Assembly (NCBI RefSeq): GCF_019649055.1
Contig: NW_026570223.1
Location: forward strand, 2,542,001-2,606,000
From: Paramacrobiotus metropolitanus
Taxonomy: Eukaryota; Tardigrada; Eutardigrada; Parachela; Macrobiotidae
Length of the DNA stretch: 64,000 bases
Direction of reading: 5' to 3'
The position numbers were made by a program, and so were the translations under genes. The notes beneath the pieces were generated by a model. It was not told the origin of the DNA. It was given only the letters and a program-made list of their open reading frames with translations, and ran no database searches. This document shows, in pieces, positions 1,062-64,000 of the stretch. Positions within the stretch are counted from its first letter, which is position 1; every line of letters begins with the position of its first letter.

Positions 1062-2911
1062 ATGGTGGCGGTTCCCCTGGATCTCCAAAATTTTGAATGT
1101 CTGTTGAAGAATCACGACAGCTTCCTCTTCGATTGCGATGGTACGAACATGGGATACGACGTGATTTGCAGTGCAGTGCTTATTTAGAAACAACCCATCT
1201 GTCTGTTTATGTCCTTTATTTGCGTATTGGCAAATGTTGTAATGGTCGCTTGAAAACTAAAATCGGTAGTCAGAGTAGTACTGTTACTTGCGTAAGCACT
1301 TTTCTACAACTTCTCATGGATTTCAGGTGTTCTGTGGCATGGAAATACCTTGATTCCCGGTGCTGCCGAGGCGCTGTCGCTTTTGAAAGCTAAGGTGAGA
1401 AGTTTGAAATTTATAAGACGTTGCGCGGCTTATTTGCGTCGCACCGCTTAATTAAACGTGAAGCGATACATTTTTCCTAAAAGATCGTATAGCCGGTGAG
1501 TCGGTGACCATCACGCGTTGAGCTGATGATTTAATGACACAAGATTTTTTAACAGGGCAAGCAAGTGTTCTACGTCACAAACAACAGTACTTCCACCAGG
1601 GAGCAGTATGCCGAAAAGTGCCGGAAACTCGGTTTACCAGCCGAAAAGGTAAATTTTGCATCCCTGCAAATTCAAATTTATGACATTACTGTACCGTCGA
1701 GGTGTAGGGTGATACCCATACCGTGTACAAACTATCGCAACCGAAATGCTCTTCAGATTTATGAACAGGAAATAATTTATCATGCTGCAATAGTTTTGCG
1801 TGTGATAATCGTGGCAACAGAAAAAATCACAGTTGGCTTTATTTTTTGCAGAAGGAGATAGTCTGTACGGCTCATTCCGCGGCACTGTACCTTCAAGACT
1901 TGCTACGCCCAACATTCACATGCCGTCCGAAAGTTTACCTTGTTGGATGCGTTTCCATTGCGGATGAACTTAATGCAGTTGGGATTGATTCCGTTGGACT
2001 GGGGGTACATTTGCTCACTCGCTATGTAGTGTGTATATTCAGTTAATCAAGAAAGCTTAGGAATATTGTACATACCAAAACGCTTGCAAACTGTAAGCGT
2101 AACCAAAAGAGTTAACCTGCTGAGCGATTACTGCTATGAATTGATGAGTAAAGGAGATCTAGACTGAATGCAAAGTTGCAGAAATTACTGAAATTATTTC
2201 CAATACCGTCAGTGTTACCTATCTGAGCTAATATACACTGGAATATTAAATGCAGAATGAAGTATAACTGAAGTATAACAAAATAACGAAGTAAGTACTG
2301 TACTATATGCGGTATAGGTAATTGAATTGTGCATGCACAAGTCGGAAGTGATGTTTTTTTTCCAGCCCGATCCAGTTGGCGAAAACTTCACGCAGGATAA
2401 ATGGCGCTCTGTGGAGTTGGAGGACGACATTGACGCAGTGGTTGTGGGATTTGATCCTCACATCAGTTTTATCAAGATCCTCAAAGCTGCCAGCTATCTG
2501 AAGAAGCCTCTGGTCCATTTCGTGGCTACCAACACCGACCAGTCTTTCCCTACTACATCCAGCCGCATTGTCGTGCCCGGCACGGGATGCGTAGTAGCGC
2601 CGATTGCCATGGCGGCTGACCGGATTCCGACTGTGATGGGCAAACCGGAAACGTTGATGTTTGAGTATTTGCAAAAGGAATTTGAGTTGGATTCGGCGAA
2701 GTGTGTCTTCATCGGTGATCGCCTAAATACTGATATTTTGCTCGCTCATAAATGCGGGATGAAAAGTGTTATGGCATTAAGCGGTGTTTCTACGCTGGAG
2801 GAGGTCGAAAAATACCAAAACAGCTCTGATCCACAGGAAAAGCTGTTGGTGCCGCATTTTTTCATGAGTGATATTAATGTTTTAAAGGAACTTCTGGAAC
2901 AGATCAATTAA
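1062..2911 (+). CDS. PGP: Phosphoglycolate / glycerol-3-phosphate phosphatase (HAD family)
   Basis: HAD-superfamily phosphatase that hydrolyses 2-phosphoglycolate and related metabolites in the cytosol. Five exons: 1062-1140, 1327-1394, 1556-1648, 1852-2004, 2366-2911. Phases close exactly and give 312 aa; human PGP has 321. Visible HAD motifs are the nucleophile/acid pair in FLFDCDGVLW (D24, D26), motif II VTNNST, the cap region AVVVGFDPH with GTGC, and motif IV GDRLNTDILL with GVSTLEEV after it. Motif order and the C-terminal MSDINVLKELL end match animal PGP. The start was chosen because the reading frame MVAVPLDLQNFE leads directly into the DxD motif. No key residue is missing. The gene is divergent from VKOR. 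PDXP (chronophin) is the nearest alternative, but the cap sequence fits PGP better. Confidence 0.93.
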
Positions 2912-5480: not shown

Positions 5481-6452
5481 TCACGAAGAAGGCCTCTTTT
5501 TATCAACATCCACAACGGTGGACGACGAAGAGGGTGCTGGCAGCGGAGCTGTCGTCGGTTTAGGTCTGGCATCACTGGGCGGATCCACTTGAACACCAAC
5601 CGACTCCATCTCTCTTCGAAAGTCCAGCCGAATGGGCGCCAACGGTTTGTACTCCGGAACTTTGACATTCTTGGGCTTCAGCGCCACACAAACACGTGTC
5701 AATTCACGAATCTGAGCATCTTGTTTTTCAATGGCCATTCCCAAATCCACAATACTGTTCTCCATTGCAAAGAGCCGTGCTTCGTGTGCGGCCTCCCTGG
5801 CTTGCTCTTTCCTGGAGGATCGAATGTAATCCGCAATCAAGCACAGCGCCGCAATGCTGAAAATTATCATTTCACCCAAGATCTGTGCGCCCTGCTCGAT
5901 AGCCTGTTCCTCGTTGAGCTTTGCAACTTTTACGGGCTGGCCAAGATTGAGCATCCACATCTTGATTTTCACGTCCGCCCAATGATAAACTGCAAAGTCA
6001 GGAATAAAAAAAGTGTAATGCTGTAACAGACTATCGAATCTACTTATTATTAACCTTGCACGGGTTCAACTAGTCGTCAATAATTTTTATATTGCACTGT
6101 TGCAATCTGCTGCTTCGAACAGCCATGGGCCCATGCTTATATAAATTTTAACGCAAAGTTCAAAGAAAAGCCTTCGCAAAATTCTTGCAGCGTAAGCAGA
6201 ACTACAGACCAATATTAAGAATTTCGTTAACAGATAAATTTTGTGCTTCCTAGTTCCTACACTGCTTCCTACACTGCAGTAAAGACATCTACATCAGTAG
6301 AGACACTTACACTGAGCAGGTGGCATGCAAATATAGGTTCTGAAGAAAGGACTGGCTTTCGCGCGCGTCTGAATGCCTTGTGCTATCGGTTTACTGATCT
6401 GACGAACTGCCAAGTAGGCCAGCTTGGCCAAGGGAAATGCAGCCGCAACCAT
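5481..6452 (-). CDS. OPA3: OPA3 family mitochondrial membrane protein
   Basis: OPA3 is a mitochondrial membrane protein of uncertain molecular role; human mutations cause optic atrophy and Costeff syndrome. Two exons: 6311-6452 (ATG at 6452) and 5481-5989, giving 216 aa against 179 in human. Exon 1 encodes the family hallmark [19 protein letters not shown], then [12 protein letters not shown]. Exon 2 continues [14 protein letters not shown], the motif [17 protein letters not shown] and a hydrophobic segment [13 protein letters not shown], followed by a coiled-coil stretch. The splice joins a T to TT and restores F-Y-H-W, exactly the conserved family sequence. The C-terminal tail, about 60 residues rich in Pro, Ser and Thr, is longer than in vertebrates and looks disordered. 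The gene is divergent from SUCLA2. Confidence 0.92.
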
Positions 6453-18745: not shown

Positions 18746-21700
18746 TTATTTCCTGCCAAATTTTGCTGGGCCCATGTACGATCGGGCAGCGGCATAAGCA
18801 TTGCAGTTGAGGACACTACGTATAGGAAGAGGAAATCGACTGCGTTTCTGGAATGAGGAGAGCGATGCGTTAAAAAAATACTTTTTCGATACTGGAGAAG
18901 TGCAAGTCTTTGAAATTGTGCCTTTAATTACCGATGCGTTTAAACAGGGGAACTTCAGTGTCGTTACGCATGAGTAATCCACATCCATAAGGTACATAAG
19001 GTCACCGGAGAATACCAGCGCCACATCTACTGCATTGCCAAGCGATCCCAGTTGGAAACTGACCACGGCATCGATTGTCGACGGAATTGTGGATGCATTG
19101 CCAATAAAGAATTTGCTCTTTATTAACGGAACCTTTTTTGCACGCGTTCCAGCTTGGATAAACTGTGAATTGGGCTCGAATCCATCTACACGTTAAACAA
19201 ACGTTGTAAGGTTTGTAAAGTCAATTGTTTTATTAGCGTTTTCAAAAGCGCAAAAAGCTCCTTTAAGATAATTTAACAGTATACAAGTGTCATAATAATA
19301 TTACGAAACCTGGGTACAAATAATCCGGACAGTTACTGCTCACTCAGTATTCATACTTAAAACCGATCTCGGTTCCCACTTACTATAAATACGGAATTCA
19401 TAGTAATTTCCCGGGTTAACCAAACTCGGGAGCGTAAAGACTGTTTGTAAATTTGGCAAAATGAGGTCATCCTCCACAATCGGCAAATAGTCCAGGAATG
19501 TAAAGTCCGTGTACATGTAGTCATTTTGCGCCTGTGTGGATCAAAAAAGGTCAAGAGCGTTCAGTAATACAGTGAGGTAGTCATTTAATATATAGGTAGC
19601 GCGCTACCGGGCGAAATTTTACCGCGATAATATGGGTGACGCGCTGGTCCTTCTCCGGCACGGTGTAAGCAGCGGTTACCGGCAACGATGATAAATCGGG
19701 GAAGTCTTTCACAATAGCTAATGGGCCATCACGGATGTATCCGGACGTAGTAATCACATAGTAATCGTTTCCTAAATGCACAACCAAAAGATACGTGAAC
19801 TAGCAAAATATTTTTATTTTTATCAATAAAAAAACGAGAGAATCTGTGGCAGTTGCGGTTCACAAAACAATTATATACACATCTACAATACACTGAAAAC
19901 CAACAGTAACGCTCACTGCTTAAAAATAGGTAATGTTTTCGAGTGTTTTAAGAGGGTCATATAAAACAGTCTATAGTTTCAGCTTGTCGACACCTTTTTT
20001 GGTGCACCTTTTTTTTATCCACGTGGATAGCCATACCTGAAAAAATTACTATCCTGCCATCTTGATTTTGTACCGCCGCATCCACACGGAAGCCAGGATC
20101 GCAGATGTTCCGCTTAACACTGCCGCCTTTTCGCTGTACAGCTACGTAATCCGCTTTTGTCGGATCGGCTATCAAATTCCCTTGTACATCCGGGAAATAA
20201 TTTGGGAATTGTTCTTCAGCTGTCGTCGTTGATGAGGTAGTCGTAGTTGTGCTGGTCGTCGTTGTGGTGGTCGTGGGTGGAGTGGGCTTAATAGTGGTGG
20301 AAGTGGTTGGAGCAGCCATGGGAATAATTTTTGGAATGTCCGCATTGTAAATGGATATTGAAGGCCGGTTTTCCCGGTCACGTGAAGGGACGCCGGCTAA
20401 CACCGTGATCGTCGGTTTGTACGCTAAAATGCTCTAGATTTCTTTTTGTACTTAAATGACTATGTAATTACTAATTACCTATGTATTAACACAGTAGTAC
20501 TGATTGTACGTTGCACTATTTTCATCCATCACTTCCAGTCAGTTTTTAGACAGATGTTGAAAATTCTGCTGAAACAACTGCAGACAGAATTGTGACATAG
20601 AAAAAAAACAGAAGCGGTGACGAAGTATACTTAATACTAAAATTTTTATGTAAGTTACGTAACATTGCAAAAAATATATAATTTTTATATGAAACTACAG
20701 TTTACGCGTACTCGTATATATCATGGAAGTTTTAGATACTTACAGTCCAAATTTCGACAAAGGTCATTTTTGATAATGTCTTGACACTGATACTGGATAG
20801 CCATGGCATAACAGTCCCAGTAACTCAAACGCGGTTTATCGCCAATAGTTTTGGTTGCATCGCGCACCGTGAACACCGCTGTTCCCGGTTTAGCGTATGC
20901 TGTTGGCAGATGATGCGTCACACTATTGTAATCATAAGGAAATCCTTGATAATAGACGGTAGTATCCAGATATTTCTGGAACGGATTAAAAGGTACAAAT
21001 TCTGCAATAAGAACGAATTAAACCTGAACACTTAAGCATAATCAAGATTCATAAGCGCAACCAAAACACACTAGTATATGTATTCAAACAGATATTAGAC
21101 CAATGACTTATGTACGTTATATCTAACCATCTTCCAGATTTTCCAGATGCATTTCCAGATAATCATCCCGATCCGGTCGATTGTGCTCGCTTCGTTTTCC
21201 CAGAACATGAAAGAGTGTTTTCATCACCAGACGTTTATTATGCAGGCAACCGTTCTTTCCAGCAGATATTCCCAGTTTTTGACCGGCACCGTCGGTTGAC
21301 AGCAGGCCAGGATATGACCAACATGTTCTATAACGTGCGTATATACTATATATTTTCAGTTTATTATCAATGCAACAGTATCAGCATATCTACTCGTAGT
21401 AATTACACACAAAACATTATATTAGCAAATATAAAATGAGAGCTATATGCAAAAAACAAAAACTGTTTTATGCTACCAGATTTACTGAAAAAATTGGCAA
21501 CCGTATTAGTTCTAATTTTACGTAATCGTGGGACGTCACTAAATACAGATGTTACTCGTACAATTTGTGATAACCGGATCGAATATTGTCAGTTTTAATT
21601 TCACCCAAGTGGTTCATCAAAAGTCAATAAATTACAAATTATAAACTTATAATGATTCAAATTTGATGTTTGCCTCCACATTAACAATACCGGTATTGTC

Positions 21701-24700
21701 CTAGAACTAACCATATTAAGTACAAGTATACTACGCGCGGCGCCCCATAGTTTTGAGATCTCTATAACCAGAAAACTTCTGGAAAAACGGACAACGCCAT
21801 TAGATCCGGGATAGTTCAGAAGTGGCCGGCATGTGTTTTTTTTATGAAAATATCAAGCCGGTATCAAGCCGGCATCAAGACCAGATTGATCCAACCCATC
21901 TTAAAGGTCACCTTGAAACTTAGAAATATTTGCCTAGATACAATACAAAATACCAATTGACATAATTATCACACTAATTAAACCGAAAACAAAATAAATT
22001 ATTGTACTTATTCAAACACTCGCGTTATTCAAACATTGCTGCCGGTGTTGCCGAGCTCGAAACGTTTAAAATCAACTGGTATAAAATGTAAAAAATCAAA
22101 TATAAAATCAATACGAAAAATCACTGGACGAGTGAGTGACCGAAACACTATCACCGACCACTGAGCGGAATCTCCAGATGAGTGGGTGACCGAGCTACCA
22201 CCACTGACCAGTAAGAAAAATCACTAGACAAGTGAGTGACCAAAACACCATTACTGCCCACTGAGCAGAATTTCTAGGTGAGTGACTCATCGAGCGGACT
22301 TTGCTCTTGCTCACCTAACGGCTCTGTGCACTGGACAGTAGTTGTAGCAGGGTTACATCCTCACGTAACGATTTTTCTCCTTACCTAGCGATATTTCTTA
22401 CTGGACAGGTTGAGCTCGGTCAGTCACTCACCTAGTGATTGAGTGCGTCAAAAATCGCTAGGTGAGTACGTGACCGAGCTACCACCACTGTCCAGTGCCC
22501 AGAACCCGTTAGGTGAAAGAGTACCGAGATACCATTACTTTCCAGTGCACAAACTCCGTTAAGTGATCTAGTGACCGAGCTACCACTACTGTCCAGTGCA
22601 TAGATCCCGTTAGGTAGATGGGTGACCGAGCTACCAATACTGTCCAGTGCACAGAGCCCGTTAGGTGAACGCGTGACCGTGCTACCACTACTGTCCAGTG
22701 CACGAATTCCGTTAAGTGATCTAGTGACCGAGCTACCACTACTGTCCAGTGCATAGATCCCGTTAGGTAGATGGGTGACCAAGCTACCAATACTGTCCAG
22801 TGCACAGAGCCCGTTAGGTGAACGCGTGACCGTGCTACCACTACTGTCCAGTGCACGAATTCCGTTAAGTGATCTAGTGACCGAGCTACCACTACTGTCC
22901 AGTGCATAGATCCCGTTAGGTAGATGGGTGACCGAGCTACCAATACTGTCCAGTGCACAGAGCCCGTTAGGTGAACGCGTGACCGTGCTACCACTACTGT
23001 CCAGTGCACGAATTCCGTTAAGTGATCTAGTGACCGAGCTACCACTACTGTCCAGTGCATAGATCCCGTTAGGTAGATGGGTGACCAAGCTACCAATACT
23101 GTCCAGTGCACAGAGCCCGTTAGGTGAACGCGTGACCGAGCTACCACTACTATCCAGTGCACGAACTCCGTTAAGTGATCTAATGAGCGAGCTAGCACTA
23201 CTGTCCAGCGCATAAACTCGAGACCGAGTTACCAGTACTGTCCTTTGCATAGATCCCGTTAGGTAGGTGGGTGACCGAGCTGCCAAAGCTATCCAGTGCA
23301 CAGAGCCCGTTAGGTGAACGTATGACCAAACTGCAATATTACTGAGCAAAATAGAGCAGGGCCTGCTAAGTTCTTAATGAGTGACCTATCTAGCACCACT
23401 GTCCAAGTCTTAGCGTCCTTTTAGTTTGTAATGTGATACTCTCGTGGGTGATTTGATTCGGATGGTTTTTCGCTAAGAAAATTTAACAAAAAATGATCTG
23501 TAAAGTCAAAGTAATTGCGTTCGACTGCACGAAACCAAAACATCCATTTTTTTATAAAATTTTTGTTATCGGGCTCTTCAGATTTATCCGCTCTAAGTTA
23601 ACAATCCGTAAACCGGCCAAGGAGTTTAGAACCCAAGAAACGCGGAGGCGAAGCCGAGGCTGTTTCTTGTATTATATATCTATATCGCATATATATCTAT
23701 ACCGCAAATTTGTATAAGGTGATGTGTGCTAATTCTTGCAATAGCGACACGATAGTGATCGGTTAGGTGCGATCAGTCACAACAATATGTTATTGTATTC
23801 ATTTCATTCTTTCCGTATGTTTAATTACCATACAGGAAACCGCATAATTACTTGTACTAATATGTGCATGAACCGGATCCGGTGTGATGCAGTGAACAAA
23901 TCATGGTCATTAATTATTTTGTTGATAATTGCAGCCTTTTAACGCATAATGTAGCAAATCGCTCGCGTAGCTTTGACGTCTTTTACTTACCCATCAACAG
24001 CGGGACTAATAATTATATAATCTTTTCCAGCATCACTGCGAGCATCGTAATCCACAAAACGAACGCAGCCTAGGCTATCGAGAAATATTTGGTCCATTGC
24101 TTCGTGAATGGTCGCCAGTTCAGTGGAAGCTATATATTTAATACATAAGAATGTGCAAATGTCAACTTAAAAAAAGAAACTTTTTCGAGTTTTACTAAGT
24201 AAGTAACTATCCTATGATAAGTTACGGAGCATTGGAAAATACGATTTACTACATAACAAGCGGTAGAAATAATGGTTTTATTTTTTTTAAAAATAGCAAA
24301 ACTGACTTATACATCTTCGGAAAAACTATTACAACATATTGTGCAGCGTTAAGGAACGATTTCGAATACTGTGCAACGGTTATTGTTGAATAAGTCTCGT
24401 GTATTGTACTTGGTGTTTATAACTTGTCGAATTAAGTACGTGTGTCTTCAAATCGTTTTGATTGGTGAACTGAATTGGAAGAAGTGTTTTATGAAGTCGA
24501 ATTAGTCAGATTGCTTTATAAAACCAGTGATTAGGACAAGACAGGAAAAAACTTGAAAATTTGTTGTATTTTTTGCATTACTTTTTACACCCACATTTTT
24601 TCTAAGCTTTGTATTCATCTGATTATGCATATGCTGATATGCTGTATCTGTTTGATAGGTTTAAAGAAAACACCAAAATGTATAGAAATTTAGAATGAAA

Positions 24701-25875
24701 TGTTTTAAGAAACGTATGTAAACTTATGACAAATACACAAACTGTCAAAACGCAGCGTTTTTCATAGGAGAGCATTACTGTGTGGTAAAAACCAATTTGC
24801 TAATTGGTGGAGTAATACGCACTATATCCGTCTGAGATCAAGTAAGGAACATGGGATGGGTCCGGCCACCGTGAATAACGGGGATCGGTGTTCAGATTTA
24901 GCCTCCCGAGCTACAAAAAGGCCACGCACACTGTTAAGTATTAATTAATTAGGTTAATGCACTTGATAGTTCAAAAATTCTCCGAGTCATGCCTAATCGT
25001 AAAATAATCACAGTATGAAGTAATTATAGTAGCAGCACCTTATTGTTTTCCTTATAAAACATTCTGCGTTTTTCACGGACATGGATTTCTGCGATTACAG
25101 GCAAGTAGCGTGCATGCGTTTGGTGTTATGTACAAATAAATACCTGTGAATACTGATCACCCGTGGCCCATTTTCCGCTGACCTTCCGAAACAACACTGA
25201 CGCAATCGCGGCATGTAATAATATAAACATGCCGCCTGCAAATTACACCGACATGATTCATCAAAAAATTTAATTGTTTACTGGTACATCGAATTTTTTT
25301 ATAGTGGCACTCCAAACTTACACAGCGAATGATGTACGTTATTCTTCCGGGTGATCATCTCGAGTGGTTCCAGATCAGTGCTGACTGGAAAATTGAAACA
25401 GCGTTTCACAGCCGCAGAAACAGTAAAATGTATAAAAATTAAATATTTTGGATAATAAATTATTAATCCACACCACCTTTTAAACACTAAATTCCAATCA
25501 GTTTCCGGTGATGATTATATACGTTTCGGCAGTAAAGCCACTTTACGGCATCATAATACCATAAAAAAACTGTTCCAACTGCGCATTAATAAAGGCAACC
25601 GAGACACCACGCGTGCGGTGAAGATTCGTCCAAAAAACTTAACGATTTTTCTGCTACCTTTCACTTGATGACACCGTCTGAAAAATGGTTATACATAAAT
25701 GACAGATTTTTAACTTGACGGATGGGAAATATCAAACTGAGAAAAAATCAAGATCAGTAGGAAAAGAGTCAAACAATTAATAGGTTATTTACCCGCATCT
25801 GTAACGTGCGCTGGGGGTTGCGACATTTGCTTGGAAATTAAAGAGGCCGGTTGTATGGTGTCGAGCCATCCAACA
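18746..25875 (-). CDS. Astacin-like pseudoprotease fused to a hemopexin-like domain (N-terminus incomplete)
   Basis: Eleven exons: 25793-25875, 25322-25384, 25144-25196, 24823-24910, 23991-24129, 21128-21327, 20744-21001, 20037-20423, 19608-19771, 19384-19531, 18746-19185; phases chain without break (about 674 codons). Order: propeptide-like region with ATGDQYS; astacin core SRWPDPSHVPYLI, TIHEAMDQIFLDSLGCVRFV, DYIIIS, EHNRPDRDDYLEMHLENL, GFPYDYNSVTHHL, PRLSYWDCYAMAIQYQC; Thr-rich linker; four hemopexin-like blades starting CDPGFRVDAAVQNQDGRIVI and closing YLMDVDYSC. The HExxHxxGxxH zinc site is replaced by KTLFHVLGKRS and the Met-turn M-H-Y by T-H-H, so the fold is kept but catalysis is almost certainly lost. 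Likely secreted. The signal peptide may come from the exon at 28493-28610. The last exon's tail beyond the final Cys is less certain. Confidence 0.75.
20196..20320 (-). other. Thr/Pro-rich linker between astacin-like and hemopexin-like domains
   Basis: This part of the 20037-20423 exon encodes a run dominated by Thr with Pro and Ser, typical of O-glycosylated extracellular spacers. The DNA is a degenerate ACN-rich simple sequence, so length may vary between individuals. Confidence 0.75.
22100..23420. repeat. Hierarchical satellite: 51-bp monomers, 153-bp and 306-bp higher-order units
   Basis: The core (about 22440-23330) is built of about 51-bp monomers, each with GTGACCGAGCTACCA and CTGTCCAGTGCA-like blocks. 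Landmark CACgAAtTCCGTTAAGTGATC recurs at 22548, 22701, 22854, 23007 and 23160, exactly 153 bp apart (3 monomers). Within the 153-bp unit GGTGACCGAGC and GGTGACCAAGC alternate (22621, 22774, 22927, 23080), giving a 306-bp super-period. Degenerate monomers extend left to about 22100 and right to about 23420. The array lies in the 2.66-kb intron of the astacin-hemopexin gene. Because 51 is a multiple of 3, two long open frames (305 and 234 codons) arise on the minus strand; I treat these as artefacts. Confidence 0.95.
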
Positions 25876-27252: not shown

Positions 27253-28218
27253 ATGGATAGCCAAACTTTTAATAGAGTTGTCGTGGGTTTGGGGATTGCT
27301 CTCGTGGCTGTTGTCTGTGCCGGGAATGCTGAACCGGCCAGCGGACTCTTAAAGCTTTCAGGTAACAGAAACAATTTCTTGTTGAACTTTAACATTAAGC
27401 TAATAATTACTATACTTGTTGTACCCTAATATTGTGCAGCTATGATAATTCTCATTAAAAAAGTACTTTGCTTCTTGTGTACTCACAAAAGATTTCAATT
27501 ACCCAAATAACGATCGCATCCAAAACGTACACACAGTACTTTTCTACAATTCATAGTACTTAATTATCATGACCTTTTTGACTAATGCTGTTGCATTTGA
27601 ATGCTTCGTTTTTGCGACTCGTAGTCTAGTTTGTATTCCCGGATAATACAGTATTCTGTCTTCCGCGCTTATTTGCACACGGTAACCAAGCATACATCCG
27701 AGGTAAAGCGTTATTAAAAGCCATGAAATCTGCCAACGTGTACAGAAATGGCCGAGTGGGGCCATACTTTGTGGATGTTTCCCGTTTTCGACCGTAGGAA
27801 ACCGTTTTCAATAATTCTTACGAACCTGTTGATTATTAGCATATTACACGGATACAGTATTAAAGTCCGCTTATCACGTGCAACCGTAATCTGCGTGTGG
27901 CTTGCAGAGATCAGGTATGAAACATTCTTTCGTTCTACAGGTGACGCCGACGGATTACAGGTAGATAATGCCATCCCGGACAATTCCATCCGCCGATATT
28001 ACATGCCCAGTTACTCCCTTCCCTGGAGTATGCTGTATCGAAAACCATTTCAGACGATTCGCCGTGCCCCCAACGACATGCCTAACACACTACTGGGCAC
28101 TGACCTTTTGTTCAAGCGTACTGTCGGCTCTCCCATCGAAGTAGAGGCCAATGAAGCCCCGTGGTACTTAGGCAAACGCTCTTCCGAGCCAATAATTGCC
28201 TTCGATCAAGAAGATTAA
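27253..28218 (+). CDS. Neuropeptide-like secreted precursor, 128 aa
   Basis: Two exons, 27253-27361 and 27941-28218, joined in phase 1. Residues 1-8 are polar, 9-24 form a hydrophobic signal core (VVVGLGIALVAVVCAG), and cleavage is likely near AGNA/EP. Dibasic sites at R54-R55, R77-R78, K95-R96 and G114-K115-R116 split the rest into short peptides. The last bounded peptide, TVGSPIEVEANEAPWYL, is followed by GKR, the standard signal for C-terminal amidation. A Tyr-rich peptide (residues 56-76, starting YYMPSYSLPW) lies between the two RR sites. Each candidate peptide is single copy. I could not match it to a named family by eye. The processing-site layout strongly suggests a prohormone. Confidence 0.7.
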
Positions 28219-28963: not shown

Positions 28964-30257
28964 TTAATGGTCCTCCTTGCTGACTTTGCGCGACCGATAG
29001 TCGCGTTTTCGATCGCCCAGTACCAGATGAAAAAACAATGTAAGCATCAGCGACACCACCGCCACCGATGTCAGGACAAATCGTAGTCCTTTGTACCAGT
29101 CCGGGTAAGGTGAGTGCAGCACATCCACATAGGCCATCCCCACCAGACTGCCGGCCACGGTCAGCAGGGCCAACGGTGTCGGGAACAGCAGGCTCAGCCA
29201 GGAGGCCACCACCGGCCCGATGGCCGGCGCCAGCACCCGGTAGTCGATGGTATCCGGTGTACTGCCGCCACGCAGACCTAAGGTCACGGCGTACCGGATA
29301 CCGCCCAGAAACGACAGGATGGACGCCGAGTAGGCCACCTGAGAGAAAGCCCACGATGCATCGCATGACCCACCCATCAGACACATGAACGGCACCGTGA
29401 CAAACGGCAGCATACCTGGAATAAAAATTGTTGAGGGTTGTAGTGAATAAAGGCCACTGTAAAGAATGGGTGGAAATCTTGGGAAAGCTGGACCGCACAC
29501 ATATTAATCCTACAAGTTCTAACATTTCTAAAAGCCTTTAAGAAGTTCTGACATTTTTAAAAGTAAATAAAGGAAACAACGCATTGACTTAAGGATGGCC
29601 GAAGTATTACCAATTAAACTATAAGCAAACTGATTAATTAATTTTATTACAAAATAAATATTTGTTACATGCGCAGTCGATATACTGTAGTTAGCCGGCG
29701 CCGTGGTACAAGAGCGGTGGTACATACAAAGCGAAAAATATTTGTGAAAATACCTTATATCGTTAGACGTTATGGTACCTAATACTACCTATTAAAGTCA
29801 AAATACTATCGTAATTATGTATTAACAATTTTTCGATTATCGATGTTTTGCAGTTTGACGGCAACAAAATGATTCGAGCGGGCAATTTCTTAGGTCAAAC
29901 GATTAGTATTTTAAAGCAGTGACCATGGCACAGCTGGATAAATATAAATAATGTTATAAAATTAATCAGGGACAGAAAAATAAAATAAATTAAGTACGTA
30001 CTTGCGCCTCCTACTACCAGAACAGGCAGGGGTCCTTTGCCAATATTCTGAGCCTCCTGCATGGCTGCATTGAGGTCACGTTTGGCTTGGTCAACAGAAT
30101 AATATTCCCTCGTGGAAATGCAGCACAAGGCAGACCCAGGAATAGGATGGGGACTTTTCAGAACAGTGCGTTCAAGAGCAGACGAATCGTTCCTGATTTT
30201 TCCGTCAGTGAGTGTACGAAAACAACGCTGTCGAACGGCGGAACTGATCCGAAACAT
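28964..30257 (-). CDS. TMEM69: TMEM69-like mitochondrial multi-pass membrane protein
   Basis: Two exons, 30002-30257 (ATG) and 28964-29415, joined in phase 1 to give 235 aa; human TMEM69 has 247. The N-terminus is basic with few acids (MFRISSAVRQRCFRTLTDGK), typical of a mitochondrial presequence. Exon 2 holds the DUF3429 signature: MLPFVTVPFMCL, FSQVAYSASILSFLGGIRYA, then four further hydrophobic segments including VLAPAIGPVVASWLSLLF and FVLTSVAVVSLMLTLFFHLV, ending in a charged tail. The QVAYSASILSFLGGIR block is diagnostic. Exon 2 is markedly GC-richer than the flanking DNA. Molecular function is unknown in the family. A second long frame open in exon 2 is a shadow of this one. Confidence 0.88.
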
Positions 30258-45600: not shown

Positions 45601-48600
45601 TATTAAGGGTTAAGGATTATTATCGGTTAACCTGCCAAGCCTTAAACTATACCACTTTCCTGTAACTTACCAAAGCACATGACAATACGTCCCGCAAATG
45701 CTCCAAAGAAGTGATTAATCATCTGTGAACCGCTAAAGTACGTCACAAAGGAGAACTTTAATTCCAGCATAATTTCGAAAATGATAAATAAACAGTTGAA
45801 GATAAAGATAAAGACAATCTCCGATATTCGATAAATCCAGGAAAATGGCATACCGTGCATGTACTCATAGGTCAACCTGAAAACATATTTTTGAAAACAA
45901 AGAATAGTTTTCTTAAGAATATACTTAACAATAAGCGGATAGTGAAGAGTCTAGTGCTCATTCGATTCGTATATTATTTAAAGTGGATTATCAAATGTAC
46001 AAAACGGAAAAATTTCAAGATTTTCGCCATAAAATGCGAAAATTTTTTTTCACCTTAAAATGCACTCAATCCAATAGGACACTGTAAAAGCCAATACCAC
46101 TCCATTCAGAATGGTGTTGCGGCAGTTTGGCATCATTGTGGCAATACCCAAAAGCACAAGGAATGCCCAGTAGGTCGCTTGGAAAGTCCAGAACTTTGTC
46201 ACCGGCGCCATCCACATTAACCGAATCATTGTACACAGCGGCGGCCGCACCACGCGCCCTCGATGAATTAGTTTCTTAGGCGTCCTGACGTTATCCCGCC
46301 GCTGAAGCTTCCTTTCATTATCCCTCAATCGTTGAAGTTCATCGACAATATTTTTCCGATGAAGATCACAGTCCACATCCATAATCGCGTCCGCCATAAC
46401 GCTAGTCGATCGCGATCTTCTAGATGAACTCCGATTTTTCACGTAACGCGGAAAGCGAATCCAAAAGTACATCGGAAATATCAGGAATGCCGACAGAATA
46501 ATTTTTGCATCCACGAAGCGTTCGGAAACTTGAATTTCGCCCATGAAGAAATTATTTAACCATTCTTGGCAACTACGATGCGCCAGAAACCACCTGTAAC
46601 CAAAAAATGCTATTTATACAGCAGTTTCGACATGCTGCTGTAGATAACCCGTTAATATTTAAAATACGAAGCGATCACTACATATGCATTGCCTAACCGC
46701 TTTTACCATTAAATTAAATAATTTTACTGTAATTTTGTTTTGTATAATTGTTTCGATATAAATTGCTTGCTTTAACGCATTCTGCACTTATTGTTGGAAT
46801 CATATGCCATCTGTATTGGTGTCCGGTAGCCAAAGTCGGGAAAGCGCTCATTTAGGATATCCGTTAGACGATCCGCTGCCTGGTCTTTCACACTTAAATC
46901 CAGAATATCTGTCGCAAACACCGCAAAATCTTTCCGGTGGTTGGATAAACGCTGCTCCAGCTCGTAGTCCGTTTGGTGTTCAGCCAGTCCGCGGTACAAT
47001 GAACTGATGAAAAGAGCAGTCGGTATAGGGTCATCGCAGTACTTGCACAGTAACTTGGCCAACGCGGCACGATTAAGTAACACCGCCCAGGAAATCAGTG
47101 CTAGGCAGGCCTAAAAATTTTGAAAACAAATGTTAACACACTTGAAAACAGTACTTGCTGCATATAGAAGAGCTGCAAAACAGAAGCAGAAACGCTTACC
47201 CTCCGTTCAGCTACTGTAGCGCTCAAGACGTAATCACCGAGAGAGTTCATCGACAGCCTGTACGCCGAAACCGCAACCGGAAACTTGGCCAGATGATTGA
47301 GTAGAGACGGTAGCATTTCCTCCACAAATGCTGGTGGGACAATATCTGCATTAAAAATCCCACCTAGTATTACATTCACACGTGATTTTGTTTCTTTGAT
47401 GCCGTACGATCCAAAGCAAAATACATAATTATTATTGTATTTCGTAATATATATTGTCGAAAGTCACTGTATGGGCAGTTAATTTAATTACCGATACTTC
47501 AAAGTGGAAAACACACAGGATTACGCTTCTTACCAAGAAAAAAACAAAACTACTAGACTCACCTTCCGAGCGCTGAAGAATTCTCTGCCATACAATATCC
47601 ATAAAGAATTTCCCATCAGTCGCCCGGCGAAAAATCTTCACCAGCTTCAAATGATTTAGATATCTGTGCAGAATAAAATCTTGCTGCATAAACATGTCAA
47701 CAAACTCTTCGCGACCCGCAAGAATAAGTGCAGCTTCGAATGACGCATCTGGTATCTGGAAAACAGAATATATTAATTATGTAAACTTGTTCCCAAAAGC
47801 ACGTTTTAGATGCCAGATCCTACCTGCATTTTTTTCCAGGGCTTTTTACTGAGAATGTCTGTCTTTGCAAATTCCGGCCGATTGCATCGTATTGTGAGCT
47901 GGAGATTGCGATCAAGAAGTGACATATTTGGAACTAAAAAATTTGCTTTAAGAACACTGCATAAGGACTTTGCGAATGAAAAATGAAATCATTTTTTACC
48001 ATTGCTTTCAGATGCTAAGATGGATTTGAGCACAATTTTATCAAGGTCAGAAAACTCGCTGGCCGGTGCAGTGCAGTCCATAATCGAAATTAGTGACATC
48101 GTTCCCTGACGCGACAGTTTAACGCACTCCAGGATTTTCTCCACGTAGGCCATTCGTTCCGAATCGTGTCCGCGGAGTTCTTCAGCATAATCATCGGAAA
48201 GACGGGTGGAAATCTGATGAATAAGGGCAGCACGATCAGACCCCACAGCATCCCTAAACGAACGCAAAAGTTCACTTCTATGTTCCGGTTGTTCTATGTT
48301 CCGGTTGTCGTTTTCTGTTAATACAAGGACAGTTTTCGCTTGACTATAAAAAATTCCCTTCTTTGGCTAAATGTTAACTAAAACCTGGTTATAAAATAAT
48401 CTCAATATATTGCAAAAGACTGAGAAAATTTGGCTATAAAATAAACTCTATATATTGCGAGTGCGAATTATATAACAGTGACCCTGATAAGTGAGTGTGT
48501 GACCTTTTCGAAATCATAATAGGTACTGACCTTTCCCGAACAGCCATAGCCAAAGTGTCCGCCAAGTACCCGCATCCCTCTAGCAGAATGACCGGCACGC

Positions 48601-50250
48601 GGTTCAGCAGATGCTGGTGAATGAGATCCAACTGTGCCAGGTCGCCCTGAAACAGCAGCACCACAAACGGAACCTTCTCATCGGATGGATTCCCGGTTGC
48701 CGGCATGGTTCCATGTGCATCTGGCAGATCTGGATCTAATGCGTTACCAAAATCGTAAACGCCCACAACACATTCATTTTCACGAAAAAGTAATATTACT
48801 GGCCACTTACTGCAAAGCAATACGTACCCGATCGTTGTTCCAGTATTTCATGCCGGATATTCTGCACGGCCAACGCCTGTTCTAGAGCGCGTTCCAGCTT
48901 CGCTCGGAATACGCAAGCAGCGGTATAGGGCTGTTCCAGCAGAACGAAATGCGTATGGTGCCAGTGCAATCCAAATCGTTGTCGCTCATCATCGTTCCCG
49001 TGCTGTGCTACCGGAACAGTTTGCTCCTAATTGCAAGGAAACATTAGAAAATCTGTGATTTTAAAGGCGGCATAAAACTTTCGGGGCTGCAGCGTACCTT
49101 GCTATGTAAAACTTGTTCGGCATCGGTCAGCAGAGAACACGGCACCATACTAATAAGAGTTACCGTTCGGGATGCTTTCCGATGGGGGGACGAATATTCA
49201 GTAGAGTTTACATCCCGGTACTGCCGGTGCTCTTCATGCTTTATTGCCGTTCCAATCAAGCGTGTGATACCATAATTCAAACCGTCCGTGATCAGCCATA
49301 CATCCAACGCTTTCATAATCTACAGCAAAATTATTACAACCGATTTGAATAATCTGGAATGCTGACAACAATTACACCCGCACATTACAAGAGACAAGAA
49401 AAAAGTCATTTAAAGCGTATATTTCAATTATTCGCGCCTGATGCGGTCAGCCTAAGAAGAATATAATTTAATTACAGTAATTTGTCGTGGCCAGTTAGTA
49501 AAACATGATGCCAACTTGAGTGATATCGCAGGATATAATTGGAGGGCAGAAAACTTTTCAAACACTAGTGTTAGTATTTTAATTATTATTCCAAATTGCA
49601 TACTAAAGGAAACATATTTTGTTGTTCTTATTATAGTTGTAGTTGTAAACATACAACGAAAGACACTGTCCGCTAAGCAAATGCTACAGAACCGGGCACA
49701 CCTTCATAAGACCTTTCTGGAAAGCCGCGCGATGGTCTTCCCGCTTCCATAAATCGAAATATTTAGTCCCACCAACAACACTCAACAACAAATGAGGAAA
49801 CGGAAGATGCCAAGTATCCAGTATCTTCTGTGCGCATGCAGTGGCCTCTTCTTGAGGCTTAATGACCATATACGGCTTCTAAAAATCCAGTTATGGATTT
49901 AAGGAACGACACACAGCGATTTGCAATATGTAGTTCTCATCAGCTATTTCGGATAGGGTGTCATTCTCATAATTGCCATGCATATGTAAAACATAAAAAT
50001 TAATCTATCAGAAAGTCAGTTTTTACCTCAGGAATGGCATAAAGGAACGATAAAGGATCTTGATTATTGCGAGCACCGGTCTTACGGGATGCTGCTCCAG
50101 TTTTCTGAATACAAATTTAGTTGAAAAACGAAAATTTAGTAACTACCGAAAGCTTTAGGGAATACTTCTTACCTTCCTTATCGTTGGTCGATTTGCATTT
50201 CCATTGGTAAATCCCTGGTAAGAATGCATTTGTAAATAGTTTTCCGACAT
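42629..50250 (-). CDS. TRPM2-like cation channel with NUDT9-homology tail (gene B)
   Basis: Paralogue of gene A on the opposite strand, 1501 codons in 23 exons: 50173-50250, 50027-50104, 49702-49878, 49098-49319, 48828-49026, 48531-48735, 48000-48277, 47824-47933, 47563-47755, 47200-47345, 46788-47110, 46054-46593, 45671-45876, 45448-45584, 45248-45378, 45003-45191, 44525-44839, 44314-44453, 44003-44118, 43421-43647, 43187-43343, 42790-43035, 42629-42721. Landmarks: HLLLSVVGG, WLITDGLNYGITRLIGTA, KWFLAHRSCQEWL, S4-S5 LGPMLYRLQRMLAEDF, three-Cys pore loop, TRP box ADAIWKYQRY with PTLPPPF, NPLGRTGMTGRG, KYGPNH and GYIDDNRNTDNAWVE. Shared introns keep the same phase as in gene A, but five introns of A are missing: exon 12 equals A exons 12-15, exon 14 equals 17-18, and exon 22 equals 26-27. 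The Nudix box is not recognisable. Confidence 0.92.
48265..48300 (-). other. 16-bp duplication creating tandem splice acceptors before gene B exon 7
   Basis: On the minus strand CAACCGGAACATAGAA occurs twice in tandem, and each copy carries a TAG acceptor. The inner copy (exon start 48277) restores the frame. The outer one would add 16 nt, shift the frame and meet a TAG at once. Confidence 0.8.
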
Positions 50251-63000: not shown

Positions 63001-64000
63001 ACCAAGGAGCTGGCGGCAATGGTAAGGAATAATTAAGTTTATTGATCTTCTTGTAACTAGATAGGTGATACCTTTACCTAATGGTTTCGCCTGTTTTAGC
63101 AAACGTATTGAAAGAAATTGTCGAGCCAGCTGGTGCGATCATTAGGGCAGACAGTTTCACACTGGGCGATGAGACCGTGAGCATCCATGAATTATGGGTG
63201 GCTGAATATCAGGAAAGCGTTGCTGTCCTTGTACCCAAAGACCAAATTCACGCGGTAAAACAGATCGCGCAACGGGAACGATGTCCGGTTGATGTCGTTG
63301 GCGAAATTACCGGCTCAGGAAACGTAAGTACTGACACTTTAAGTTATAGTTATTTTGACAACAATACATTTGTACTCGTGAGAACCCACGCAGCAGATTG
63401 GGATGTGTGTAGTTACACAGTGACATGTGACATTTGTACAGATCATACTGGAAGATTTTGCTTCCTACGACGAAAGTGCACCGCCTTCGATTAAGCCCAT
63501 CAATTTACACCTGGATTTGGTTTTGGGAAATGTTCCAAAGAAGGTAAGCGTTTGTGTGTCTTGAAATCGTGTGCACAAATGTTTCGGTTCAACTGAAAGA
63601 GTGGAGTTATAAGCTCTTCGCGAAATGCTGTAGTACTTGCATTTGCAGCATTACGAGCTGGAAAGAATGCCCGAAATTCTGTCGAGATCGGACGGAATTC
63701 CTGTGAGCAGAAGTGATTTCTTGGAAACCGTCAGACAAGTTCTACAGCTACCAAGCGTTGCTAGTAAACGATATCTGACTAACAAGGTGAGTCGGATTGG
63801 TGATTGTAAACAAATTATGAACGATGGATGGGTGAACTTTAGAGAAAAAAACCGACTGGTTATAGGTTGACCGTTCCGTGACAGGACTTGTTGCTCAACA
63901 GCAATGCGTCGGTCCCTTCCACACTCCTTTAGCTGACGTCGCTGTGATTGCTCTGTCCCATTTCGACACCGTCGGAAGTGCTACTGCTATTGGAGAGCAA
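60023..64000 (+). CDS. PFAS: Phosphoribosylformylglycinamidine synthase, 5' part (runs off the window)
   Basis: Cytosolic enzyme for step 4 of purine synthesis: FGAR + Gln + ATP to FGAM. Thirteen exons here: 60023-60378, 60763-60916, 61059-61209, 61368-61476, 61727-61867, 61941-62065, 62132-62260, 62320-62580, 62794-63021, 63100-63323, 63442-63543, 63649-63786, 63866->64000; phases close throughout. The N-terminal PurS-like region is followed by the AIRS-like domain: LAQSNSEHSRHWFFNGRM, FTAETHNFPTAVEPFSGATT, GTGGRIRDVHATGRGAHV, ASNGASDYGNKFGEP, REWIKPIMFSGGIGS, VVKIGGPVYRIGLGGGAASS, SIHDQGAGGN and ASKRYLTNKVDRSVTGLVAQ. Every catalytic block lines up with animal PFAS. The Gln amidotransferase half lies to the right of the window. 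The start is the first ATG upstream of the conserved reading frame. Confidence 0.96.

Follow-up and report, generated by a model that had tools for sequence, protein, structure and literature searches.

A predicted dead astacin with a divergent hemopexin-like domain in the tardigrade Paramacrobiotus metropolitanus, and its relatives in the same genome

A 64-kb stretch of the genome of the tardigrade Paramacrobiotus metropolitanus (C3:2542001-2606000, in a genome of 169.8 Mb and 533 contigs), here called the window, carries on its minus strand a gene modelled in nine exons, running from 25230 to 18746 and encoding 631 aa. Eight of the exons, from 24910-24823 to 19185-18746, have AG/GT borders and a single open joined frame. 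The predicted product of this one spliced frame has a complete astacin domain in which the zinc site, the general base and the Met-turn have been replaced; a linker rich in Thr connects it to a hemopexin-like domain that is divergent. The exons are listed here by window position.

25144..25230, minus strand: proposed exon 1 (uncertain); start Met, short signal-like MFILLHAAIAS, donor CAG/GTATTT, phase 0
24823..24910, minus strand: exon 2; start of the astacin domain, RYSRWPDPSHVPYLISDGY
23991..24129, minus strand: exon 3; STELATIHEAMDQIFLDSLGCVRFVDYDARSDAGKDYIIISPAVDG; flanking intron phases 1 and 2, the same in the second copy described below
21128..21327, minus strand: exon 4, the pseudo-active-site exon; MKTLFHVLGKRSEHNRPDRD replaces HExxHxxGxxHExxRxDRD
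20744..21001, minus strand: exon 5; end of the astacin domain; SVTHH replaces the SIMHY Met-turn
20037..20423, minus strand: exon 6; linker rich in Thr, then hemopexin blade 1 as far as its middle (NICDPGFRVDAAVQNQDGRIVIFS)
19623..19771, minus strand: exon 7; remainder of blade 1 and beginning of presumed blade 2
19384..19531, minus strand: exon 8; remainder of presumed blade 2 and beginning of presumed blade 3, with no profile support
18746..19185, minus strand: exon 9; presumed blades 3-4 and the C-terminal tail ...AKFGRK*, stop TAA

The exon at 25230-25144 (MFILLHAAIASVLFRKVSGKWATGDQYSQ, followed by GTATTT) joins the 24910 exon in phase 0 and fits better as the predicted start of the gene than the two first exons given in an earlier note on this DNA, 25875-25794 and 25384-25322. 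Neither of these joins 24910 cleanly, the second being in frame with it only through a weak gtgtaag donor and a different acceptor, and both have been replaced in the model.

The astacin half of the protein is matched end to end by the PF01400 Astacin profile (86.8 bits, E 1.9e-24, positions 2-189 of 189; cut-off 22.5), and the closest solved astacin is 3vtg (E 5.8e-15). In keeping with the astacin family (MEROPS M12A; PF01400), the whole domain, of about 200 residues in the family, is present, the Cys residues align with the astacin disulfide positions, the order of the elements is kept, and EHNRPDRD fits the astacin motif EXXRXDRD. Unlike the family, the gene lacks HEXXHXXGXXH, the Met-turn Met and the Tyr ligand, and has the added hemopexin-like domain. 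The metzincin motif reads KTLFHVLGKRS before the normal EHNRPDRD, so that the catalytic Glu and two of the three zinc His are lost, and the Met-turn is SVTHH against SIMHY, both the Met and the Tyr ligand being replaced. Because the zinc ligands, the base and the Met-turn are missing, astacin-type catalysis by the predicted protein is excluded in practice. There were no matches to HE..H..G in the six-frame translation of the entire 64-kb window, and therefore no spare intact exon is seen in it. The earlier note had described the gene as a dead, non-catalytic astacin, and this description is well supported, the same type of losses being present in a 42%-identical second copy and across a clade of dead relatives.

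The C-terminal half had been described as a four-blade hemopexin-like propeller. Pfam Hemopexin (PF00045) finds a single blade in it, with 21.6 bits for the C-terminal half, 21.4 for another cut of the sequence and 19.8 for the whole protein, so that the match is at the profile's cut-off of 21.3. Each blade was also scored with a profile of 16 blades from the matrix metalloproteases (MMPs) of this genome, against 500 shuffles of the blade, unscored shuffles being taken as lower. The scores of blades 1, 2, 3 and 4 were equalled by 0, 113, 23 and 3 shuffles for the window gene and by 0, 92, 198 and 0 for the second copy. Neither of the two blade-4 pieces is matched by PF00045. By these profiles blade 1 is clear and blade 4 has some support, the latter from the MMP-blade shuffle test alone, while blades 2 and 3 are not recognisable by sequence and are presumed. 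Four blades are likely from the length and order of the segments. A Cys lies before blade 1 and another after presumed blade 4, and these two could form the disulfide by which hemopexin domains close the first blade on the last. When the propeller halves of the window gene and the second copy were joined in a two-sequence profile, 15 distinct solved sequences were found at E up to 10, all of them hemopexin, MMP or vitronectin; the best is collagenase-3 (E 4.2e-5), through the blade-1 part.

The second dead astacin-hemopexin gene lies 1 Mb away, at C3:1552748-1555876(+), and encodes 675 aa. It consists of a signal peptide, a dead astacin (active-site motif KTLVHVLGFRM, Met-turn SITFH), a Thr/Pro-rich linker, a hemopexin-like domain whose blade 1 scores 29.8 bits with PF00045, a predicted transmembrane segment (19 residues, mean hydropathy 2.61) and the end ...RFGRK*. 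This transmembrane end is predicted only, because the last intron has a poor GTCGGC donor. By BLASTP the two proteins are 42% identical over 218 residues of the astacin half (E 6e-59) and 27.5% identical over 109 residues of the first propeller part (E 2.5e-10). Seven intron phases are in identical order in the two genes (1,2,1,1,1,0,1), with one of the seven introns placed differently: it interrupts blade 1 of the window gene, whereas in the second copy it precedes that blade. A possible 84-nt in-frame intron, noted by eye, is present in exon 9 of the window gene (18931-18848, GTAATT...TTCCAG), where the last intron of the second copy sits, and another frame of this exon contains a hydrophobic stretch, so that the C-terminal end of the window protein is uncertain. 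The FGRK-stop end is found in three dead-astacin genes with otherwise differing tails (window 18746-18760, L015 6363-6377 and L012 2771-2785). It could be a sorting signal or an amidation-type end.

The earlier note had reasoned that no standard astacin carries a hemopexin domain, a premise that is wrong for this genome. A locus that first surfaced as a weak match (E 0.25) contains such a fusion on the minus strand, C33:~214947-219359(-), where an intact-site astacin leads into a Thr/Pro linker, with hemopexin blades after it. It has HEGDI in its N-terminal exon, and HELLHVLGFYHEHTRLDRD and SVMHY are intact. With its exons joined by eye it scores 206.8 bits with Pfam Astacin and 96.3 bits, in three stretches, with Pfam Hemopexin. 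The intact active site, HEGDI and the three Hemopexin stretches distinguish it from the window gene, with which it shares the order of astacin, linker and hemopexin and the place of an intron. Exon 6 of the window gene ends after IFS in phase 1, matching the blade-1 intron of the C33 gene, and this intron point is run through by the blade-1 exons of the MMPs at C62, C64, C67 and C82 and likewise by that of the second fusion copy. Among the 17 PF00045 matches listed for the genome, 15 have a Peptidase_M10 match no more than about 2.2 kb away. The others are the second fusion copy and C12:1613647-1613775 (L079), where hemopexin repeats have neither an M10 nor an Astacin match nearby among the matches listed. 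Such hemopexin gene counts are lower bounds, because the PF00045 search of the genome missed the C33 gene.

There are at least 164 astacin matches in the genome. With an E limit of 0.01, a consensus of four dead exons gave 149 matches. The best 30 comprise 26 with a shared dead signature, three with HExxH and one with REMMH (L050). In the signature His-1 has become K or R, His-3 is preceded by Arg, and the Met-turn has Thr. Twenty picks from lower in the match list include ten more with the signature (one with a disturbed frame and two near-identical), four intact sites, one without the third His only, three with other losses and two that were unread. At least 36 dead-clade exons have thus been read, some being near-identical pairs.

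The replacements are much alike across the 26 dead rows aligned. At His-1 there are 14 K, 10 R, one A and one G; at His-3 there are 15 N, seven S, two T, one M and one P. The catalytic Glu is kept in none and His-2 in three. Arg before His-3 is found in 25 of the 26, against none of 15 live rows, the family Glu after His-3 is kept in 25, and all ten dead rows that reach the Met-turn have Thr there. Two trees were built from the alignment minus its active-site and Met-turn columns. In both, one branch separates all 26 dead rows from the rest, which are 15 live rows and L050 in the first tree (support 99/96) and 20 live rows in the second (100/98). From the 30 consensus loci L025 (near-identical to L026), L044 and L047 were omitted, and L010 was added to the dead rows; L050 was omitted from the second tree only. 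Of another set of 20 stretches, 18 have an H[ED]..H..G frame and 14 of these were used, while L069 and L070 were not taken further. None of the 20 lower picks is in the first tree; the live L087, L096, L097 and L098 among them are in the second. The window gene carries the signature and is placed with the dead rows, and on these sequence comparisons it is shown to belong to a dead-astacin clade with a signature of its own. Because the pattern of replacement is common to the dead rows, it argues for one ancestral loss with a new site that was then kept, rather than for scattered decay.

Four astacin exons have lost catalytic residues and do not carry the signature (C53:422033, C156:116917, C6:237958 and C13:1558473, with HQLLH, RQLLH, HLLMH and REMMH). 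Separate catalytic losses are possible for these; only the REMMH exon entered a tree, where it is beside the dead rows on a long branch. Five dead astacin exons are clustered at C26:1177778-1188895, with downstream frames that differ, being propeller-like (1177778), Asn/Pro-rich (1184027) or short (1180923). In the propeller-like case, which was picked out by eye among ten loci, a first-blade-like stretch scores 15.6 bits with a two-sequence blade-1 profile, more than all of 1000 shuffles (best 6.7). When the MMP blade profile is used, its score is only 3.2 bits, a value matched by 16 of 1000 shuffles. Blades beyond the first were not recognised at C26:1177778.

Given this architecture and these relatives, the window gene would encode a pseudoenzyme with a function outside the cell, which most likely lies in binding or competition; judged from sequence, this reading is slightly more likely than not. 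A pseudoenzyme that binds to matrix or to a surface is the most likely form, and it may compete with active astacins. The astacin domain and the propeller would each offer a surface to which proteins of the cuticle, the matrix or the cell surface could bind, and the gene product could hold or mask targets that it has in common with active relatives, among them the intact C33 enzyme. The architecture may have a single origin, in an astacin to which a hemopexin domain was added; after this fusion catalysis would have been lost, and the dead form would then have multiplied. A wider proposal, which is tentative, is that an astacin and an MMP-type hemopexin domain were joined, that a working enzyme was kept, and that its relatives gave rise to a large pseudoenzyme clade in which the zinc site was rebuilt (Lys/Arg, Arg, Glu) for a different job, forming an extracellular enzyme-decoy or enzyme-adaptor system.

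Several results weigh against the pseudoenzyme reading. The free tree puts the C33 gene among the live astacins, and a tree that forces it into the dead clade is 1.9 log units worse, a placement that is not rejected (p-AU 0.141, approximately unbiased test). The trees are of 123 columns, with many rows under half filled and long branches flagged, and in the first of them L050 is beside the dead rows (94/87) with a long-branch warning. The dead-row conservation counts are biased upward, because the consensus used for retrieval contains the dead motif. The exon borders of the second copy were picked to make the frames join. The propeller half of the window protein, as a single query against solved chains, has four hits at E up to 10 and no significant solved relative, the best being collagenase-3 at 0.16, and when its profile was compared with that of MMP propellers, blade 1 was the only part that aligned. 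A structure model of the last exon together with that of the second copy was unusable (mean predicted local distance difference test score, pLDDT, 32). The earlier note had proposed a secreted protein, which is plausible and weakly shown: the predicted start of the window protein is only short and signal-like, without a clear transmembrane segment by prediction, and the signal peptide of the second copy is clearer.

The codon-position test is also weak. Between the window gene and the second copy, the astacin half has 0.386 nonsynonymous (pN) and 0.764 synonymous (pS) differences per site; in the propeller pN is 0.54 and pS 0.81. Among 100 codon-shuffled and realigned controls, the observed third-position excess was reached by 3 for the astacin half, 32 for blades 1-2 and 50 for blades 3-4. 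Constraint on the astacin half is weakly supported. The claim of purifying selection on the propeller from pN/pS, a check that the earlier note had suggested, was dropped because the controls show a similar third-position excess; the alignment alone yields most of the signal.

The alternative that survives best, and which we consider rather unlikely, is a dominant-negative regulator, in which the dead form would pair with active astacins or mask them, as a zymogen or substrate competitor, and would not be a matrix binder as such. The family glutamate kept in 25 of the 26 dead rows binds the new N-terminus in mature astacins, according to the accessible part of PMC9848320, an active astacin of this genome (C33) bears the same extra domain, and metzincin pseudopeptidases are treated as interaction proteins in the part of the review PMC11266112 that was available. 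However, the second copy is without this glutamate, having V instead, and no FxGD propeptide (aspartate switch) is seen by eye in the model of that copy or in that of the window gene, where exon 1 is uncertain.

A structural component of cuticle or matrix, in which the family would have been recruited as a secreted building material whose tails are repetitive, is less probable again. Long Thr/Ser- or Asn/Pro-rich tails are open downstream in three of the ten dead loci inspected (L029, L037 and L040), but the 26 rows agree well at several of the pseudo-active-site positions and along RPDRD, an agreement that bulk material would not seem to need. That the gene is a decaying pseudogene is improbable. 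The loss of catalytic residues, the unrecognisable blades 2-3 and the uninformative codon test on the propeller would all fit decay, but there are nine open exons with usable splice sites, and the replacements are of the same kind in the 42%-identical copy with its matching intron phases and are common to the clade.

The exon joins rest on reading frames only, as they would if an astacin-like and a hemopexin-like gene that are adjacent had been misjoined, but such an error is very improbable given the same order and type of linker at the second locus and in the C33 gene and a joined frame without a stop between the exons of the two halves. A degenerate MMP, in which a hemopexin domain is expected and which was already disfavoured, is the least credible: the genome's listed hemopexin matches mostly adjoin a Peptidase_M10 match, MMPs have the same layout of catalytic-type domain, linker and C-terminal hemopexin domain, and Astacin and M10 models can cross-match, as the PF01400 annotation of vertebrate MMP genes in the accessible part of PMC11788884 is taken to reflect, but the catalytic-type domain here is astacin end to end rather than M10, PF00413 (the M10 catalytic domain) does not match the window protein at E up to 1, and EHNRPDRD fits the astacin motif EXXRXDRD given in the portion of PMC9848320 seen.

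The surroundings of the gene are ordinary, with five of ten scanned open frames in the window matched by Pfam, as follows.

2318-2908, plus strand: HAD hydrolase
5484-6065, minus strand: OPA3
28967-29503, minus strand: DUF3429
48437-48847, minus strand: TRPM SLOG domain
63069-63491, plus strand: AIR synthase C-terminal domain

A minisatellite with a 51-bp period and up to 17 register copies is found at 22109-23318, within the intron between the exons 24129-23991 and 21327-21128; the long minus-strand open frames in it (up to 313 aa) are presumably spurious. Upstream of the dead astacin, in divergent orientation, 27253-27360 (+) is a possible start of a secreted protein (MDSQTFNRVVVGLGIALVAVVCAGNAEPASG).

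The pseudoenzyme reading has a parallel in the ADAM pseudopeptidases (ADAM2, 11, 22, 23 and UNC-71), extracellular metzincins with lost zinc ligands and general base that are thought to act by binding, as given in the accessible part of PMC11266112. The family and the partner domains are different, and ADAM pseudoenzymes typically retain the Met-turn in the same portion of that review, whereas the window gene has Thr there. The M12 entries in this part of the review of metallopeptidase pseudoenzymes are ADAM-type only. In the available text of the astacin review PMC9848320, for which more than 25,000 astacin sequences were searched, many partner domains are given and hemopexin is not among them; neither this word nor 'inactive' occurs in that text. 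The tree in the review, as far as its available part indicates, was seemingly built from sequences with the typical motif, and dead ones may have been omitted. In literature searches combining astacin with tardigrade, pseudoprotease, inactive-astacin and hemopexin, seen in part and with most subscription journals outside their coverage, no report was found of the fusion or of a dead astacin clade.

The hemopexin domain is hereby added to the domains that astacins can carry. Dead metzincins have been reviewed mainly for the ADAMs, going by the part of PMC11266112 available. This genome, in which astacin matches number at least 164, has a dead astacin clade whose replacement of the zinc site is conserved, beside an intact enzyme with the same added domain, which makes a natural experiment in how a protease fold comes to be reused for binding. 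Gene families annotated as metalloproteinases are among those reported to change in expression during drying, in the accessible part of PMC5531438, and in such drying-response families this annotation could mislead where the genes are dead.

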